Positions 964 to 21,104 of a DNA stretch of 21,104 nt are shown piece by piece. The position numbers and the translations under genes were made by a program. The notes beneath the pieces were generated by a model, which searched no databases, was not told the origin of the DNA, and was given only the letters and a program-made list of their open reading frames with translations. The DNA comes from a virus. Within the stretch, counting starts at the first letter, position 1. Every line of letters begins with the position of its first letter. The stretch covers positions 1 through 21,104 of IMG/VR virus record IMGVR_UViG_3300048790_000086; one strand, written 5' to 3'.

Positions 964-3210
964 ATGTCCCCGCTGGACCGCGCGATAGCGGTCACGTTCT
1001 TTCGGGATTTTGGTGCGTCGAGGAAGACTGAGGAGGAGTTATCCCTTCAGCAGCTCGCGCCGCGCATTCTGGCGTCGAACGCGCCGGTCAAAAAGCAACT
1101 CCCATGGTTGAAACTGGCACGCTTCGGGAACGTGCGGACTGAGAAGAATTCCCTTCGGCACAATCCTAATGTGCTCGCGATCTCAGGCATCGAGGCGGAC
1201 TACGACACTGAAATCATGTCTGTTGACGAGGCATGTGCGGTTCTGGCGAACGCGCGCCTTGCCGCCATGGTATACACCAGCCCAAGCCACACCGAGGATG
1301 CACCACGCTGGCGGGTGCTGTGTCCATTTTCAGCGGAATACCCTCCTGCCGACCGTGTCCGGTTTCTATCGCGCCTCAATGGTGTGTTCCAGGGCGCGCT
1401 GGCACGAGAGTCGTTCGTGCTTTCGCAATCGTATTATTTTGGAAGTGAAAACGGTAATCCAAGCCATCGCGTCGAACTGGTGGATGGCGATTATCTGGAT
1501 CTGCGGCCGGATCTTGATGAAAACGCTATAGGCGTGCCGGTTTCGGAGGCCGAGTACGAGCCAATAGCCTACACGCCTGGAGAGGGTGCCGATCGATACG
1601 TCGATGGGGTAATCCGCAACGTGCTAGGCAAGGTTGCCAGTGCTGGGGAAGGGCAGAAGCACTACACCATTCGCAACCAAGCCATGATTCTCGGTGGCTA
1701 CATGCACATCGGGAACTACGGCGTCGAGGAAGCTGCCAGCTGGCTGGTGAGCGCTCTGCCGGCATCTGTCAGAGATCCAAAGGCGGCACACAAAACAGCG
1801 CTGTGGGGCATCGAGCGCGGCGCTATGAAGCCGCTGAATGTGCCGGAACGGAAGTCCTACACCAACGGCCACGCCAACGGTCATGCGCCCACGCCAGAGC
1901 CCCCGTCGGCAGGCGACAACAATCCCCCACCAGACAACGTCGTCCAGCTCAAGCCAAAGAAGCAGCCGAAACCCAGGCCGGCGCGCCCCGACGACTGGCG
2001 CAAAGACTGGCACGTCAGTGACGAGGGAACAGCACTCCCTTCCCTGTTTAATGCCATGGTCGCCATGCGTCAGCACCCCGCACTGGCAGGCGTGACACGG
2101 TTCGACGAGATGGAGCGATCGGAAATTATCGCCGAGCAGATCCCTGGCACGCCATTTGACCCGACAATTCCCCGAATAATCCGCGACTGCGATGTGATCG
2201 CTATTCAGGAAGAGCTTCAGCAGATCGGATTACGGCGAATCGCCAAGGCGACGGTGCAGGATGCGGTCCATCTGCGCGCCAATCAGATGAGCTTCCACCC
2301 GGTCAAGGACTATTTAAACGGACTTGTGTGGGATAAAAAGTCCAGACTTGACAGTTGGTTGTCGTATTATCTTGGCGCCGAACCGCAGGATGGAGAGAAT
2401 AAGGAAAAGGCTCTAAAATATATATTTGAAGTTGGGCGATTATTCCTGATTGGCCTCGTTGCCCGCGTTCTTCGGCCGGGGTGCAAGGCCGATTACATGC
2501 TGATCCTTGAGGGTCCGCAAGGCGCACTGAAATCCAGCGCATGCCGTGTCCTCGCCGGCGAATGGTTTAGCGACAATCTGCCCGACCTTTCCCGAGGGGA
2601 TGCGGTGCGGCTCTCGATGCACCTTCGGGGCAAGTGGCTGATCGAGATCGCCGAAATGTCGAGCTTCAACGCCGCCGAAGCCCATACATTGAAAGAATTT
2701 CTAACGCAGACCGAGGAGCGATACACGCCCAAGTTTGGGCGCAATGAGGTCAAAGAAGCGCGGCAGTGCCTGTTTGTGGGCACCACGAACGAACAAGTGT
2801 ACCTGCGGGACGCTACCGGTGCCCGGCGGTTTTGGCCTGTGCGGGTCGGGACCATCAATCTCACGGACTTGCAAAAAGACCGCGACCAGCTTTTGGCTGA
2901 GGCCGTCTCGCTCTTCAACGCCGGACAGCCGTGGTGGCCAGAACAGGAGTTCGAGAAGGCTACCATAAGCCCGGAACAAGAGCAGCGGTTCGAGCACGAT
3001 CCATGGGAAGGGCCTATTCAGGATTGGATAGCTGAACACGCGATCGAATCTTGTAATATGACTTCAATCCTACGACACGCGATTGGCCTCGGCGTCGAGA
3101 AACATGGAACACGGGACATACGCCGGGTGACGGCGATCATGCGGCGCCTCAAATGGACGCGCAACATGAACAAGCATGGCCGTCCATACGAAAAACCGCA
3201 AAAAATCTAA
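964..3210 (+). CDS. Primase-helicase, VapE/VirE family
   Basis: A two-part replication protein of 748 residues. The C-terminal half is a VapE/VirE-type ATPase: Walker A GPQGALKSS (517-525), Walker B KWLIEIAEM (557-565), a sensor-1-like FVGTTN (604-609) and a likely arginine finger RDATGARRFWP (615-625). The N-terminal part has features of an archaeo-eukaryotic-type primase: GIEADYD (75-81) fits the metal-binding motif and YTSPSHT (104-110) followed by RWRV fits the sxH motif. A Pro/Lys/Asn-rich linker (about 295-345) joins the halves. Such fusions prime and unwind phage or island DNA at replication start. ATG at 964 follows two bases after the upstream stop. The RTGTTCCA repeats begin inside its 3' end and continue downstream, as expected for an initiator next to its origin. 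The helicase is firm; the primase half is less sure. Confidence 0.88.
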   Translation: MSPLDRAIAVTFFRDFGASRKTEEELSLQQLAPRILASNAPVKKQLPWLKLARFGNVRTEKNSLRHNPNVLAISGIEADYDTEIMSVDEACAVLANARLAAMVYTSPSHTEDAPRWRVLCPFSAEYPPADRVRFLSRLNGVFQGALARESFVLSQSYYFGSENGNPSHRVELVDGDYLDLRPDLDENAIGVPVSEAEYEPIAYTPGEGADRYVDGVIRNVLGKVASAGEGQKHYTIRNQAMILGGYMHIGNYGVEEAASWLVSALPASVRDPKAAHKTALWGIERGAMKPLNVPERKSYTNGHANGHAPTPEPPSAGDNNPPPDNVVQLKPKKQPKPRPARPDDWRKDWHVSDEGTALPSLFNAMVAMRQHPALAGVTRFDEMERSEIIAEQIPGTPFDPTIPRIIRDCDVIAIQEELQQIGLRRIAKATVQDAVHLRANQMSFHPVKDYLNGLVWDKKSRLDSWLSYYLGAEPQDGENKEKALKYIFEVGRLFLIGLVARVLRPGCKADYMLILEGPQGALKSSACRVLAGEWFSDNLPDLSRGDAVRLSMHLRGKWLIEIAEMSSFNAAEAHTLKEFLTQTEERYTPKFGRNEVKEARQCLFVGTTNEQVYLRDATGARRFWPVRVGTINLTDLQKDRDQLLAEAVSLFNAGQPWWPEQEFEKATISPEQEQRFEHDPWEGPIQDWIAEHAIESCNMTSILRHAIGLGVEKHGTRDIRRVTAIMRRLKWTRNMNKHGRPYEKPQKI

Positions 3211-3254: not shown

Positions 3255-3352
3255 GTGTTCCAGTGTTCGTTGCATGTTCCATTATATTTTTCGTCGAGCA
3301 CGAATAACTATATGTTATACCTTATATATGTTCCATGTTTCACTGTGTTCCA
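3255..3352 (+). repeat. RTGTTCCA iteron-like repeats
   Basis: Copies are GTGTTCCA at 3255-3262, ATGTTCCA at 3274-3281, ATGTTCCA at 3328-3335 and GTGTTCCA at 3345-3352, with a degenerate GTGTTCG at 3263-3269. Inverted copies lie outside, at 3105-3112 (inside the primase-helicase gene) and 3468-3475. The two close pairs are spaced 19 and 17 bases start to start. This resembles initiator-binding iterons, although the spacing is not strictly helical. Confidence 0.55.
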
Positions 3353-3422
3353 TATTTATGAAGAGGTATGGATATAGGTGCAAATATATAGTTCGACATA
3401 GCATAGATACGTATACGATATA

Positions 3423-3452
3423 TTGCATAAAGGCAAACGCAGGCTCTATAGG
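3423..3452 (+). promoter_or_regulatory. Candidate promoter for the ATP-grasp gene
   Basis: TTGCAT (3423-3428) and TATAGG (3447-3452) are separated by 18 bases, and an inverted TGGAACAT repeat lies just downstream. Both boxes are partial matches. It is the best + strand promoter-like sequence before the gene at 3578. Confidence 0.35.
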
Positions 3453-3577
3453 GAAAATGCGACACAGTGGAACATGAAGCATGGAATTGTTTCCTATATT
3501 CGGGTAACGTTTCCGTGACACGGAACTGGCAAACGCACGGGCGTTGCTTTCGTAGGGGATGCCCGCTACAAATCCCC

Positions 3578-4294
3578 ATGCTCGATCCCAACGCGCTGTC
3601 CTATTGGCTCCCGCTCCTTGAAGCGGCGGATTTGCCAATGCCAAAGACGGTCATTTTGACCATGCCGGAAGATGCCCAAAGGGACGTATGGGAATTGCTG
3701 GAGGGCGCTCCTGGGAACGGTGTAGCGATCAAGGCGTTCGCCGAAGATGTCGCGAATGCGGTCTACGCATTTGGATATCCGGCGTTTCTCCGCACCGATC
3801 ACACTAGCGGCAAACATGGCTGGGAACGGACCTGCTTTTTACAGCGGCGCGAAGATGCTGCCAGCCACATCGCCGCCATTGCCGAATATTCGGAACTGGC
3901 CGGCATGCTAGGCTTGCCGTGGGATACCTGGGCCGTCCGTGAGTTGCTCCCGACAATCCCAGTCGGCATGTGCACGGGCTATGGCAACATGCCGATTTGT
4001 CGGGAGTTTCGGTTCTTCGTCGAGGACGGTGCGGTCAAATGCTGGCATCCCTATTGGCCGCTGGACTCGCTGGAGGAAGGCGGCGCGGAGGGCGTGGACT
4101 ACGACGCATTGTGCAAGCTGCCGGATGACGTGAACCTGCACGATCTGGCCATCCGTGCCAGCAATGCCGTGCCCGGCGCATGGTCCGTGGACATACTCGA
4201 AACCAAGCGAGGATGGTTCATCACGGATATGGCGGAGGCGGGAAAGTCCTATCATTGGCCATCGTGCGAACGTCTCTTGTCGGCTAAATGCTAA
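3578..4294 (+). CDS. ATP-grasp enzyme, R2K-type, 238 aa
   Basis: The protein shows an ATP-grasp fold signature: FLRTDHTSGKHGW (70-82) with the nucleotide-contacting lysine region, AVREL (119-123), CREFRFF (141-147) as the central Arg-Glu strand, then VDILE (204-208) and ITDMAEAGKS (215-224) as the metal-binding end. The layout matches the short R2K clade of ATP-grasp proteins known from phages and bacteria, thought to join an amino acid or peptide to a substrate through an acyl-phosphate. Its substrate cannot be predicted. I start it at ATG 3578; the frame stays open upstream to 3467, but that extension is Cys/Arg-rich, unlike the family, and lies in the AT-rich non-coding region. No strong ribosome-binding site precedes either start. 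The stop overlaps the next small ORF. Confidence 0.7.
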   Translation: MLDPNALSYWLPLLEAADLPMPKTVILTMPEDAQRDVWELLEGAPGNGVAIKAFAEDVANAVYAFGYPAFLRTDHTSGKHGWERTCFLQRREDAASHIAAIAEYSELAGMLGLPWDTWAVRELLPTIPVGMCTGYGNMPICREFRFFVEDGAVKCWHPYWPLDSLEEGGAEGVDYDALCKLPDDVNLHDLAIRASNAVPGAWSVDILETKRGWFITDMAEAGKSYHWPSCERLLSAKC

Positions 4295-4461
4295 CCCGCT
4301 ACACACCTCCACCTCCGTTGTCCCTCCCTTCGGCGGAGGTCCCGCTTGCCAAGCACCACTGGAACGGATACAAGCCCCTCAGCCGGTCGGCGGGTGCCTG
4401 TATGGCGGGACGCTGCCATTTCCTCCCCGACGACCGGAGCCTACTTGCAGCGACACGGTGA
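4288..4461 (+). CDS. Small hypothetical protein, 57 aa
   Basis: ATG at 4288 lies inside the end of the ATP-grasp gene, giving a seven-base overlap (ATGCTAA) typical of translational coupling. The product begins with a proline-rich stretch and continues with HHWNGYKPLSRS, two cysteines and two aspartates (CHFLPDD), ending LLAATR. The His and Cys residues could bind a metal, but no family is recognised. It has no ribosome-binding site of its own, so it depends on coupling if it is translated. A partner role with the ATP-grasp enzyme (for example as its substrate) is possible from position alone. Confidence 0.45.
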   Translation: MLTRYTPPPPLSLPSAEVPLAKHHWNGYKPLSRSAGACMAGRCHFLPDDRSLLAATR

Positions 4462-4573: not shown

Positions 4574-5113
4574 TCAGGCCGTAGGCGTTTCCCGGCCTTC
4601 AGCGGCCCGCACAGCGGCTTCGTAGCCGATCGCGTCCCTCGGGTCGCGGCCGTCTGCCACGTCCTCCAGGAACGCTCTGAGCGCCGGATCTAGGCGCATG
4701 GCTTGCGCGACGCCCCGGAGTGGGCTGGCGTAGACTAGGTCCAGCCAAAGTAGCCGGTGTGCGCGCAATGCCGCTTCCGGGTGCGGGCGCGGATGCAGCG
4801 CCAGCAGACCCCGGCAGGTCTCGCTGATCTGCTGCTGGACGGACATCTCCTGCCAACTAGGCCGTTCCCGCCCCTCAGAAGCCGCCACAGCCGCCTCGGC
4901 GATTTCGGGCGGCGCAACATCGCATCCCGCCGCCACGGCCTCCAGGAGCGCGCGGAGGGGCGGCGATGAACGCATGGTTTCCGCGTGCTTTGAAGGTATG
5001 CCGCACGGCGCGTGAGCTAGAGCATAGGCCGCTGTGCTCCTCCAGCTTCGCGGTTTTTTGGTCATCTCCCGCACAATCCGGGTGATCTTAGCCGCATCTT
5101 TCGTGTCGTTCAT
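4574..5113 (-). CDS. Hypothetical protein with internal duplication, 179 aa
   Basis: Last gene of the - strand block. The start at 5113 is chosen because AAGGG lies eight bases upstream; the longer frame to 5179 has no such site. The product is Ala/Arg/Glu-rich and helical. It carries two copies of a module of about 37 residues: PPLRALLEAVAAG followed by EAAVAASEGRERPS (about residues 50-85), and PALRAFLEDVADG followed by EAAVRAAEGRETPT (about 143-178, ending the protein). The spacer between them contains a Trp-rich helix. No catalytic motif or known family is recognised. Duplicated helical modules suggest protein or nucleic-acid binding, but that is inference. Confidence 0.7.
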   Translation of the reverse strand: MNDTKDAAKITRIVREMTKKPRSWRSTAAYALAHAPCGIPSKHAETMRSSPPLRALLEAVAAGCDVAPPEIAEAAVAASEGRERPSWQEMSVQQQISETCRGLLALHPRPHPEAALRAHRLLWLDLVYASPLRGVAQAMRLDPALRAFLEDVADGRDPRDAIGYEAAVRAAEGRETPTA

Positions 5114-8271: not shown

Positions 8272-8341
8272 GTGGTAACATAAACGTGAGGTTGCGGGGC
8301 GGGGAAAGTGTGCCATTTTGCGAGGGCATTGGATTTGTGGG

Positions 8342-8833
8342 ATGAAAAAGCGCGCGCCGAAGACACAGGAACGCATACTGGATGAGTTAGAGGTTCCTGA
8401 GAGGTTTCGGGAAGTCGTGCCTGTTCCTGAAGTCAAGCGCGGCAAAAGTCACATTGAGACGATGGATAATCTCGGGATTGATGGTCTATGCCTGCTGATC
8501 AAAGCCGGCAAAGCCGTCTGGAAAATATCCGAGGAAATCAGCGTTCCGGCTGGGACAATTTACGATTGGCTGGGCAAAGATCCCGAACGTTCCGCGCGCG
8601 CGCGGCAAGCTAGAACGGAAACTGCCGAAATCTGGGACGAACTGGCAGAAAAGACGCTGATAGAGGCGGGTGCTGACCTTGACTTCCAGAAAGCCCGCGA
8701 ATTGGCGCATCATTACCGCTGGCGAGCGTCGAAGATCGCGCCGCAGTATTATGGTGACAAGAAAGAGGTTAACGTGAGTGGGCAGGTTACGTTTACCTCG
8801 CTGATTGCCGACAGCTTTAAGTCAGACGGGTGA
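8342..8833 (+). CDS. terS: Terminase small subunit, 163 aa
   Basis: A helix-turn-helix (about residues 58-80, VWKISEEISVPAGTIYDWLG) sits where small terminases carry their DNA-recognition domain. The segment that follows (DPERSARARQARTETAEIWDELAEK) is the long helix pair of Sf6-type small subunits. The C-terminal third would bind the large subunit. It recognises the packaging site and positions the large terminase. ATG at 8342 is preferred over TTG at 8318, although the nearest ribosome-binding site (GAGGG) is rather far. Its stop overlaps the start of terL by four bases (GTGA), the usual coupled pair, which adds strong support. Confidence 0.8.
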   Translation: MKKRAPKTQERILDELEVPERFREVVPVPEVKRGKSHIETMDNLGIDGLCLLIKAGKAVWKISEEISVPAGTIYDWLGKDPERSARARQARTETAEIWDELAEKTLIEAGADLDFQKARELAHHYRWRASKIAPQYYGDKKEVNVSGQVTFTSLIADSFKSDG

Positions 8834-18354: not shown

Positions 18355-21104
18355 TGCGTTGGTTATGGGCGTTGTTGTTCCTTCTCCCGATTGCCGCGCA
18401 AGCGCAACCGGCATGCACGGCACAGGCGCCGAATGCGCCGGCGTGCTTATCGCGAGCGGTCAATCCGGTCTATACGGATATTGTTGATGGTCAGCAGGGT
18501 ATAGGGCCGTCTCGCGCAAACCAGAGTGTGCAGTTTTCGCTCCTGCAACTTATCCAGATGAACCATACCACTTCGCCGGTTGCCGCGAACAACGGTGGCG
18601 GAACGCAGACGCTGGGCGTGTGGACATCGTATCTCAATGGCACGGCCGACCCGAATCCGGTCAATTTCGGCAACACATTCACGCTATCCGGGATTACTGG
18701 CTCGACGCAATGTCTGCATGTGAGCACGCTGGGCGTTGTCAGCGGGACGGGCGTGGATTGTGGCGCTGGAGGTGGCGGCGGCGTGAACGCTGGCACGGCC
18801 GGGCAGATGGCGTGGTATGCCGCATCCGGCGCGACGGTCTCGGGGAATGCGAACGTCACCGTCAATCTTGGCGCACTGGCACTGGGGTCGGCCGGTGTTG
18901 GCGGGTCGGTTGTCCTCAACGGCGCGACATCGGGAACCACTACGCTCGCGCCGAACTCGACGGCATCCGGGACTATCACATTCCCCGCTGCGACAGACAC
19001 GGTTGCGCTGCTGACCGCGACGCAGACCTTGACCGGCAAAACCATATCAGGCGCGTCGAATACGATTTCCGCGATCGGCAATGGATCGCTGACCAACTCG
19101 TCGATCACCTTTGGCGGGCAAGCCGTGGCGCTGGGCGCGTCGGCCGGTGTGCAGGGCAATGGCGCGCTGGTCCAACTCTCCACGGGCACGTTGACGAGCG
19201 GCGATTGTCTGAAAGCCGATGCAAATGGCAACGTCGTCGATGCTGGTGCGGCGTGCTCGCTGTCGGGCAGCGGGACGGTGAACGCCGGCACGGGCGGCCA
19301 ACTGAGCTGGTATGCCACGAATGGATCGGCGGTTTCGGGCAACGCGAACGCGACGATATCCCTCGGGGCACTGACACTCGGATCGTCCGGTGTCGGCGGC
19401 TCCGTGGCGTTCAACGGTGCGACGTCCGGCACCACAACGCTGGCGCCAACGGCGGTTGCCGGCTCCACGACGATCACCATGCCGGCCGCAACGGACACCA
19501 TGGCGCTACTCGCGGCAGCGCAGACCCTGACAAACAAGACAATGTCAGGATCGTCCAACACATTTAGCGCGATAGCCAATGCGTCACTGACAAATTCATC
19601 GATGACGTTCGGTGGCCAAAGCGTTGCATTGGGCGCCTCCGCGACGGTGCAGGGGAACGGCGCCAAGATACAACTTGGAACCGGCACGCTCACGAGCGGT
19701 GACTGTCTGTCTGCGGACGCCAATGCGAACGTGGTTGACGCTGGGGGTCCATGCACAACCGGAGGCGGAGGTGGCACTGTAACCGCCGGTACGGCGCACC
19801 AACTCGCCTGGTATTCGGCGTCTGGCTCTACGGTTGTCGGGTTGGCATCGGCCAACAATGGCGTCCTTGTCACCAGCGGGACGGGCGTTCCTTCGATCTC
19901 ATCGACGCTGCCGGCAAGCCTTAGTGCCACGTCCATGACGCTGGTAACACCAGCGCTTGGCACGCCGGCTTCGGGGGTGATGACCAACGTAACCGGCCTG
20001 CCGCTGACTTCGGCCGTCACTGGCATCCTGCCATCGGCCAACGGCGGAACGGGCGTCAATAATGGCGCGACGCTGACCATGGCCGGCAACATCACATTCT
20101 CTGGTGCCTTTACCCAAACGTTTACCGCTACCAGCAACACCTCGGTAACGCTGCCCATTTCTGGCACGCTGATTACAACCTCCGCCATTCCATCGGCCGC
20201 GACAACCGCGCCTGAGTGCGGCAGCGGTGGTGCGGGTGCGGTTTCAACGTGTTCCGCGACGATGGTTCTCCCGAATGGCACCACGGCAACAACGCAGATC
20301 GCCAACGATGGATCGACCAAGGTCGCGACAACGGCCTATGTTGCGACGCCTGGTGCGATCACGCCTACGAACGTCACAGCCAGCGGCCAGATTATCGGCA
20401 TGGGCACGTCCACCAATGACAATGCCTGCGCGGGTTGCATTGGAGAGTTCCAGACCGCGACGGCATCGAGTGTATCTGTCTCAACGGGGACGGCGGCAAA
20501 CGTCACCAGCCTGACGCTTACGGGCGGCGATTGGGATGTGTGGGGGGTCTGCTCTTTCAATCCGGCCGGCTCGACGACTGTTCAGTCTATCGGATGCAGC
20601 ACGAGTTCGACAACCGCGACGTTCGGCGGGTTGGGTTTAGCGCAAGCCCTGACAAACACGTTCCAAACCGGATCGGCTCAAGCTCTGGACGCGCCGGTTG
20701 CGCGGTACTCTATCTCGTCCTCGTCGCCTGGCTCGCCGGTTACGTGGAACCCGGCAGACGAAACTCTGATCAGCCTCTCAAACGCGAACCTTACGGCTAC
20801 GTCCACGGGCGCACATCAGTCGGCTTTTGTCCGCGCAACCACGTCCTACACAACCGGCAAATACTGTTTCCAGGAGACCGCCAGCACTCTGACCGCTAAC
20901 TGGACGGCGGGGATTGCCAATTCGACCTATGCTTATCCGACGCTACTTGGGTCTGATGCGAACGGGATCGGCATTGACCCAGGCCCAAACCCCGGCAATC
21001 AGGCGATTTATTACAACAATGTCCTGCTTTCAGCCGGGTCTGGCGTCAGCGCGAACGGTGATCCTATCGTTATATGTGCTGATTTGGGAGCGAAAAAGGC
21101 GTGG
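18354..21104 (+). CDS. Tail-fibre-like repeat protein with signal peptide, partial
   Basis: The frame is open from ATG 18354 to the right edge (917 codons, no stop). The N-terminus is a clear Sec signal: MRWLWALLFLLPIAAQA with AQA before residue 18. This is unusual for a tail protein. Two tandem copies of a domain of about 165 residues follow (codons at 18783 and 19278), each ending TSGDC and a VVDAG segment, with a partial third start at 19779. Each contains SLTNSSITFGGQAVALG-type repeats known from phage tail fibres. A PALGTPASGV and LPSANGGTG section follows, also typical. The C-terminal part visible here has Cys-rich beta segments. Function is likely host recognition; the end is missing. 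Confidence 0.7.
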   Translation, partial: MRWLWALLFLLPIAAQAQPACTAQAPNAPACLSRAVNPVYTDIVDGQQGIGPSRANQSVQFSLLQLIQMNHTTSPVAANNGGGTQTLGVWTSYLNGTADPNPVNFGNTFTLSGITGSTQCLHVSTLGVVSGTGVDCGAGGGGGVNAGTAGQMAWYAASGATVSGNANVTVNLGALALGSAGVGGSVVLNGATSGTTTLAPNSTASGTITFPAATDTVALLTATQTLTGKTISGASNTISAIGNGSLTNSSITFGGQAVALGASAGVQGNGALVQLSTGTLTSGDCLKADANGNVVDAGAACSLSGSGTVNAGTGGQLSWYATNGSAVSGNANATISLGALTLGSSGVGGSVAFNGATSGTTTLAPTAVAGSTTITMPAATDTMALLAAAQTLTNKTMSGSSNTFSAIANASLTNSSMTFGGQSVALGASATVQGNGAKIQLGTGTLTSGDCLSADANANVVDAGGPCTTGGGGGTVTAGTAHQLAWYSASGSTVVGLASANNGVLVTSGTGVPSISSTLPASLSATSMTLVTPALGTPASGVMTNVTGLPLTSAVTGILPSANGGTGVNNGATLTMAGNITFSGAFTQTFTATSNTSVTLPISGTLITTSAIPSAATTAPECGSGGAGAVSTCSATMVLPNGTTATTQIANDGSTKVATTAYVATPGAITPTNVTASGQIIGMGTSTNDNACAGCIGEFQTATASSVSVSTGTAANVTSLTLTGGDWDVWGVCSFNPAGSTTVQSIGCSTSSTTATFGGLGLAQALTNTFQTGSAQALDAPVARYSISSSSPGSPVTWNPADETLISLSNANLTATSTGAHQSAFVRATTSYTTGKYCFQETASTLTANWTAGIANSTYAYPTLLGSDANGIGIDPGPNPGNQAIYYNNVLLSAGSGVSANGDPIVICADLGAKKAW
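18783..19778 (+). repeat. Tandem 165-codon domain repeat in the fibre gene
   Basis: The first copy starts at 18783 and the second at 19278 (495 bases on); a partial third starts at 19779 (501 bases on). Matching landmarks are the VNAGT start, the NGATSGTTTLAP segment, the LTNSS repeat and the SGDCL-x-ADAN end. DNA differs mostly at third codon positions, so the duplication is old and the protein sequence has been kept. Confidence 0.85.

Follow-up and report, generated by a model that had tools for sequence, protein, structure and literature searches.

A phage gene for an R2K-related ATP-grasp protein with an altered metal motif and a predicted zinc site

We identified a genuine ATP-grasp enzyme gene of phages, belonging to a widespread viral subfamily, at positions 3578-4294 of a 21,104-base virus record with phage genes; the whole of this record was analyzed and is called the window here. 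We consider it probable that the 238-residue product is a stand-alone R2K-related enzyme that works without a peptide partner, with a putative ligase chemistry and a predicted structural zinc ion. This reading builds on what was observed directly, namely the gene, its predicted fold, its conserved residues, the co-variation of four of them and the absence of any conserved partner. R2K ATP-grasps are predicted phage peptide ligases. Earlier papers described the clade and proposed that it modifies proteins, with host proteins as predicted targets of the phage enzymes (PMC4431377, PMC7824862), and we found no member from phages or bacteria with a demonstrated function in the literature searched. 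Judging from the sequences compared here, what appears to be new is a subfamily with DxA in its metal motif and a co-varying Cys/His set (CHHC) that forms a predicted zinc site. Both the altered motif and the predicted site offer direct targets for mutagenesis. The gene is flanked by a helicase gene on one side and by a group of opposite-strand genes on the other, in the following layout.

964-3210, VapE-like helicase/primase, a phage gene
3211..3577, no strand, AT-rich gap 5' of the ATP-grasp gene
3578..4294, plus strand, R2K-related ATP-grasp protein of 238 aa (DxA/CHHC subfamily; Pfam R2K_3, AlphaFold2 model, Cdc123/LysX fold, about 50 viral relatives)
4288..4461, plus strand, 57-codon open reading frame, most likely intergenic and no gene
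4574-5113, minus strand, convergent gene 3' of the ATP-grasp gene, without a family match
8318-8833, terminase small subunit, a phage gene
8830-10305, terminase large subunit-like protein, a phage gene
15168-17051, head-tail connector, a phage gene

The earliest start codon in the ATP-grasp frame is a GTG at 3467, and the ATG at 3578 is the likely start because the conserved sequence opens at residue 7 from there, much as in the relatives. The protein matches Pfam R2K_3 with 28 bits against a cut-off of 26.3, and the same family is matched by all eight aligned relatives (8/8, E up to 0.1). An AlphaFold2 model built from 8 sequences (model 1) reached a mean pLDDT of 85, and one built from 31 sequences (model 2) reached 95 with a pTM of 0.90. 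Modeling together with Foldseek revealed the ATP-grasp fold, comprising a RAGNYA half and a kinase-like half; Foldseek returned more than 400 PDB chains at E <= 0.001, and among the matches listed all are ATP-grasps. The identification as an R2K-type ATP-grasp, which an earlier note had made from the letters of this DNA, was thus correct, with a family score above the cut-off and the expected fold in the model. The matches from Foldseek and VIA-align include LysX, ArgX, RimK, D-Ala-D-Ala ligase and Cdc123. LysX (3vpd) is the top one (Z 14.3, rmsd 3.4, 179 residues), the yeast and human Cdc123 proteins follow at Z 13.1-13.9 (rmsd 3.5-3.8, 204-209 residues aligned), and many D-Ala-D-Ala ligases score about 13. 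Since Z scores differing by 1 or less were treated as ties, the fold does not settle whether the protein is a ligase or Cdc123-like.

Active-site residues were mapped by alignment and motif order, and the subfamily was compared with more distant R2K proteins. The mapped sites are as follows.

3791..3814, plus strand, RTDHTSGK, residues 72-79, in which Arg72 replaces the first RAGNYA lysine and K79 is the second lysine
4004..4012, plus strand, E143xR145, an ExR motif, invariant in all sequences covering the site
4190..4192, plus strand, D205, acidic metal ligand of the kinase-like half, invariant in all sequences covering the site
4226..4237, plus strand, D217-M-A219-E220, in place of the ExN or ExGD metal motif, with DxA found subfamily-wide

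The R2K clade is recognized by two conserved RAGNYA lysines, the second of which may be Lys or Arg. Here it is the first position that is usually altered: Arg72 is found in 47 of the 54 aligned sequences, and Lys occupies the position in L077, L078, Ps_L033, three further outgroup proteins and the canonical members. K79 is kept in nearly all sequences compared, and D217 is conserved as well. The asparagine of ExN is replaced by alanine throughout the subfamily, with L080 (Gly, giving DxG) as the sole exception, and is intact in the distant R2K relatives L094 to L098, L100 and L101. The residue after DxA is variable; the present protein reads DMAE and lacks the ExGD motif in the last strand that characterizes the R2K.3 family (PMC4431377). 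The protein shares with R2K.3 (PF14243) the fold, the ExR motif described for peptide-bond-forming ATP-grasps (PMC4431377), the second RAGNYA lysine, the acidic residues of the kinase-like half and a match above the Pfam cut-off, but its subfamily differs in the usual Arg at the first lysine, in DxA for ExN/ExGD and in the co-varying CHHC set. Because DxA replaces ExGD, we filed it as an R2K-related variant rather than a plain R2K.3 member. The earlier note had named loss of active-site residues as grounds for rejecting its proposal, and the outcome is divided: K79, E143xR145, D205 and D217 are kept, whereas alanine has taken the place of the ExN asparagine and most members have arginine for the first lysine. 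About 50 viral relatives have most of the active site in common. On this evidence, the protein can probably bind ATP and magnesium, and its catalysis may differ from that of known ligases. Given that the ExN asparagine, an ATP-grasp metal ligand, is alanine subfamily-wide, the protein may have a changed ligase activity or none.

This substitution bears on a second reading, in which the protein is a Cdc123-like, ATP-binding assembly chaperone or ATPase without ligase activity that would bind a phage or host protein and use ATP to aid the assembly of a complex. Loss of the asparagine throughout the subfamily is consistent with such a role, as is the place of Cdc123 (R2K.1, the eukaryotic eIF2 assembly factor) among the best structural matches, where it has the longest aligned span. 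To our knowledge, bacteria have no eIF2. Cdc123, the R2K protein studied in most depth, is reported to act as an ATPase and as a chaperone that promotes the assembly of eIF2 (PMC12860950), yet it retains DxN (PMC4431377), so that the DxA change is not common to the two proteins, which share about 15% identity. Ligases score alike in fold, with LysX at the top and the D-Ala-D-Ala ligases close by, and no partner gene is conserved. We therefore regard a chaperone as a rather unlikely identity for this protein.

A set of cysteines and histidines within the enzyme, which the earlier note did not mention, emerged from the co-variation analysis. It consists of two halves.

4040..4048, plus strand, C155-x-H157, one half of the predicted zinc site, present or absent together with H226/C230 across 54 sequences
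4253..4267, plus strand, H226-xxx-C230, the other half of this predicted site, identified by co-variation

These four residues are nearly invariant among close relatives and absent from the canonical R2K members compared. Across the 54 tree sequences, C155-x-H157 and H226-x(n)-C/H230 are both present in 41 and both absent in 13, with no mixed case. C230 itself is missing in three of the 41 (L062, L075 and L088), where a His lies near its place and the other three residues remain. The six pairs among the four positions take ranks 1 to 6 of 378 pairs of moderately conserved columns. The CHHC label changes about five times on the tree, in clusters, too few for a sign test to have power. The C-terminal tail that carries the second half is confidently modeled (model 2, mean pLDDT 97 at residues 211-220 and 91 at 221-230). 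From the all-or-none pattern and the strongest co-variation, the four residues are predicted to be ligands of one metal ion and appear to form a zinc site built into the enzyme. A bolder proposal is that the zinc lies at the active site and does part of the work of the missing asparagine, which would make this a zinc-dependent ATP-grasp with chemistry new to the superfamily; we hold this to be improbable.

For the stand-alone ligase that we favor, ATP-Mg would most likely be held between the two halves by R72, K79, D205 and D217, and a carboxylate would most likely be activated as an acyl phosphate, if the chemistry is that of a ligase. The acyl phosphate would then be joined to an amine on a presumed target, either a small molecule or a host protein, and modification of a host protein is possible by analogy with what is proposed for the clade. 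Zinc bound by C155, H157, H226 and C230 would probably anchor the C-terminal tail on the kinase-like half's sheet, and the tail so held would probably shape a pocket beside the active site.

Relatives of the gene occur in dozens of uncultivated phage contigs ranging from 10 kb to more than 400 kb. The archaeal plasmid L032 carries a relative with all four CHHC residues, and relatives lacking the set are found on bacterial and archaeal plasmids. Apart from uncultivated phages, the subfamily is seen almost nowhere but on one archaeal plasmid and, where CHHC is lacking, on bacterial plasmids. A Pseudomonas megaplasmid (NZ_CP032678.1, L039-L042) has four R2K_3 matches, including a canonical one that reads EMN. 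In bacterial genome contigs, a search with the patterns used turned up no relative. The protein resembles the R2K proteins of jumbo phages and other viruses in being a phage-encoded ATP-grasp, with BFVD fold matches that include R4TMT8 (Halogranum tailed virus 1) and A0A2L0V0T4 (Agrobacterium phage Atu_ph07), but none of the 50,697 named phage records contains a close relative; they gave only weak, remote matches.

The neighborhoods of these relatives vary. When all open reading frames of 28 loci were clustered, the widest family besides the ATP-grasp gene and shadow frames occurred in five loci, and no neighbor family is widely shared, which leaves no conserved adjacent gene as a precursor or carrier. 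Some neighborhoods point to glycans. In a 129-kb viral contig (L012, 4027-7938) the gene lies amid genes for an epimerase, RmlD and UDP-galactopyranose mutase, in L022 it adjoins two glycosyltransferases, and in L026, of which L025 is a near-copy, it stands between a glycosyltransferase and a UDP-glucose/GDP-mannose dehydrogenase. The enzyme could accordingly be imagined as a small-molecule or glycan amide ligase, attaching for instance an amino acid to a sugar acid of a phage-made or host surface glycan. Such a context is limited to these three loci and the near-copy, and is absent beside the gene in the window and in most other relatives, which makes a ligase of this kind unlikely.

The earlier note had proposed that the enzyme acts on a dedicated peptide encoded by the 57-codon frame. 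The ATG at 4288 does overlap the ATP-grasp stop by seven bases (ATGCTAA), and the frame is open for 57 codons to 4461, as that note stated; its translation contains two Cys and three His, and PsnB, an ATP-grasp whose substrate is a peptide precursor, is among the fold matches. Overlapping starts are frequent in these compact genomes and are no sign of a functional pair. In codon usage the frame scores -0.18. The helicase, terminase, portal and ATP-grasp genes, which served to train the score, lie at +0.15 to +0.18, and the 106-residue frame at 641, outside that training set, also reaches +0.18. Its length is within chance, with 26% of composition-matched shuffles staying open as long. No ribosome-binding site is visible ahead of 4288, and a self-trained gene finder leaves the frame out.

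Conservation speaks against the frame as well. No homologue was found in viral contigs or in the nearest relative, and in tblastn searches of 101 loci (viral contigs plus a small number of records from plasmids and phages, with some overlap among them) its best E value was 0.61, whereas the ATP-grasp protein matched 92 of the 101. The refuting condition that the earlier note had set for the peptide partner thus applies: none of the relatives with the ATP-grasp gene has the frame. Unrelated genes follow the ATP-grasp stop in relatives, such as a PD-(D/E)XK protein (L004, L018), a 172-residue protein (L006), a convergent gene (L003) and a Cys-rich 149-residue protein (L008). In the window, the frame fills the gap ahead of the convergent gene at 4574-5113, and the sequence beyond the stop is predicted to fold no more stably than shuffled sequence (z -0.82). 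The partner peptide is almost certainly not a gene, and with its frame unconserved and its codon usage wrong, we find the idea of a dedicated peptide substrate hardly credible. Setting it aside spares experiments a false lead.

The nearest known parallel to a peptide partner is LysW, the small carrier protein of LysX and ArgX. LysX is the closest structural match of the ATP-grasp protein, but the 57-residue translation differs from LysW in lacking a CxxC zinc motif and an acidic C-terminus and in being unconserved. In four relatives, small to mid-sized Cys-rich proteins are encoded directly 3' of the ATP-grasp gene, at L005 5696-5866 (56 aa), L007 5723-5950 (75 aa), L021 5035-5286 (83 aa) and L008 5689-6138 (149 aa). 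A LysW-like carrier was considered for them and dropped, as they form no common cluster; their position may be due to chance.

Upstream, the gene is set apart from the replication gene, as the earlier note had observed, by an AT-rich gap of 367 bp that follows the VapE-like gene (GC 42% overall, 30% at its lowest). The suggestion of a separate promoter fared less clearly: no sigma-70 consensus pair was found where 1.1 would be expected, and the base composition and a cluster of TGTTCCA motifs leave an own promoter for the ATP-grasp gene possible. The motif occurs at 3256, 3275, 3329 and 3346 on the plus strand and at 3468 on the minus strand, so that five of the window's ten TGTTCCA/TGGAACA 7-mers fall within the gap (3256-3474), which also holds an imperfect 29-nt inverted repeat (3328-3356 / 3454-3482). 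Lying next to the helicase gene, the gap may serve as a control region with operators or as an origin of replication. No Rfam elements were found in the window. At its far end, a long Ala/Gly/Thr-rich, tail-fibre-like frame on the plus strand (18355-21104) runs past the end of the window, and because of it the 609-residue frame at 18491-20320 on the minus strand is probably an antisense artifact.
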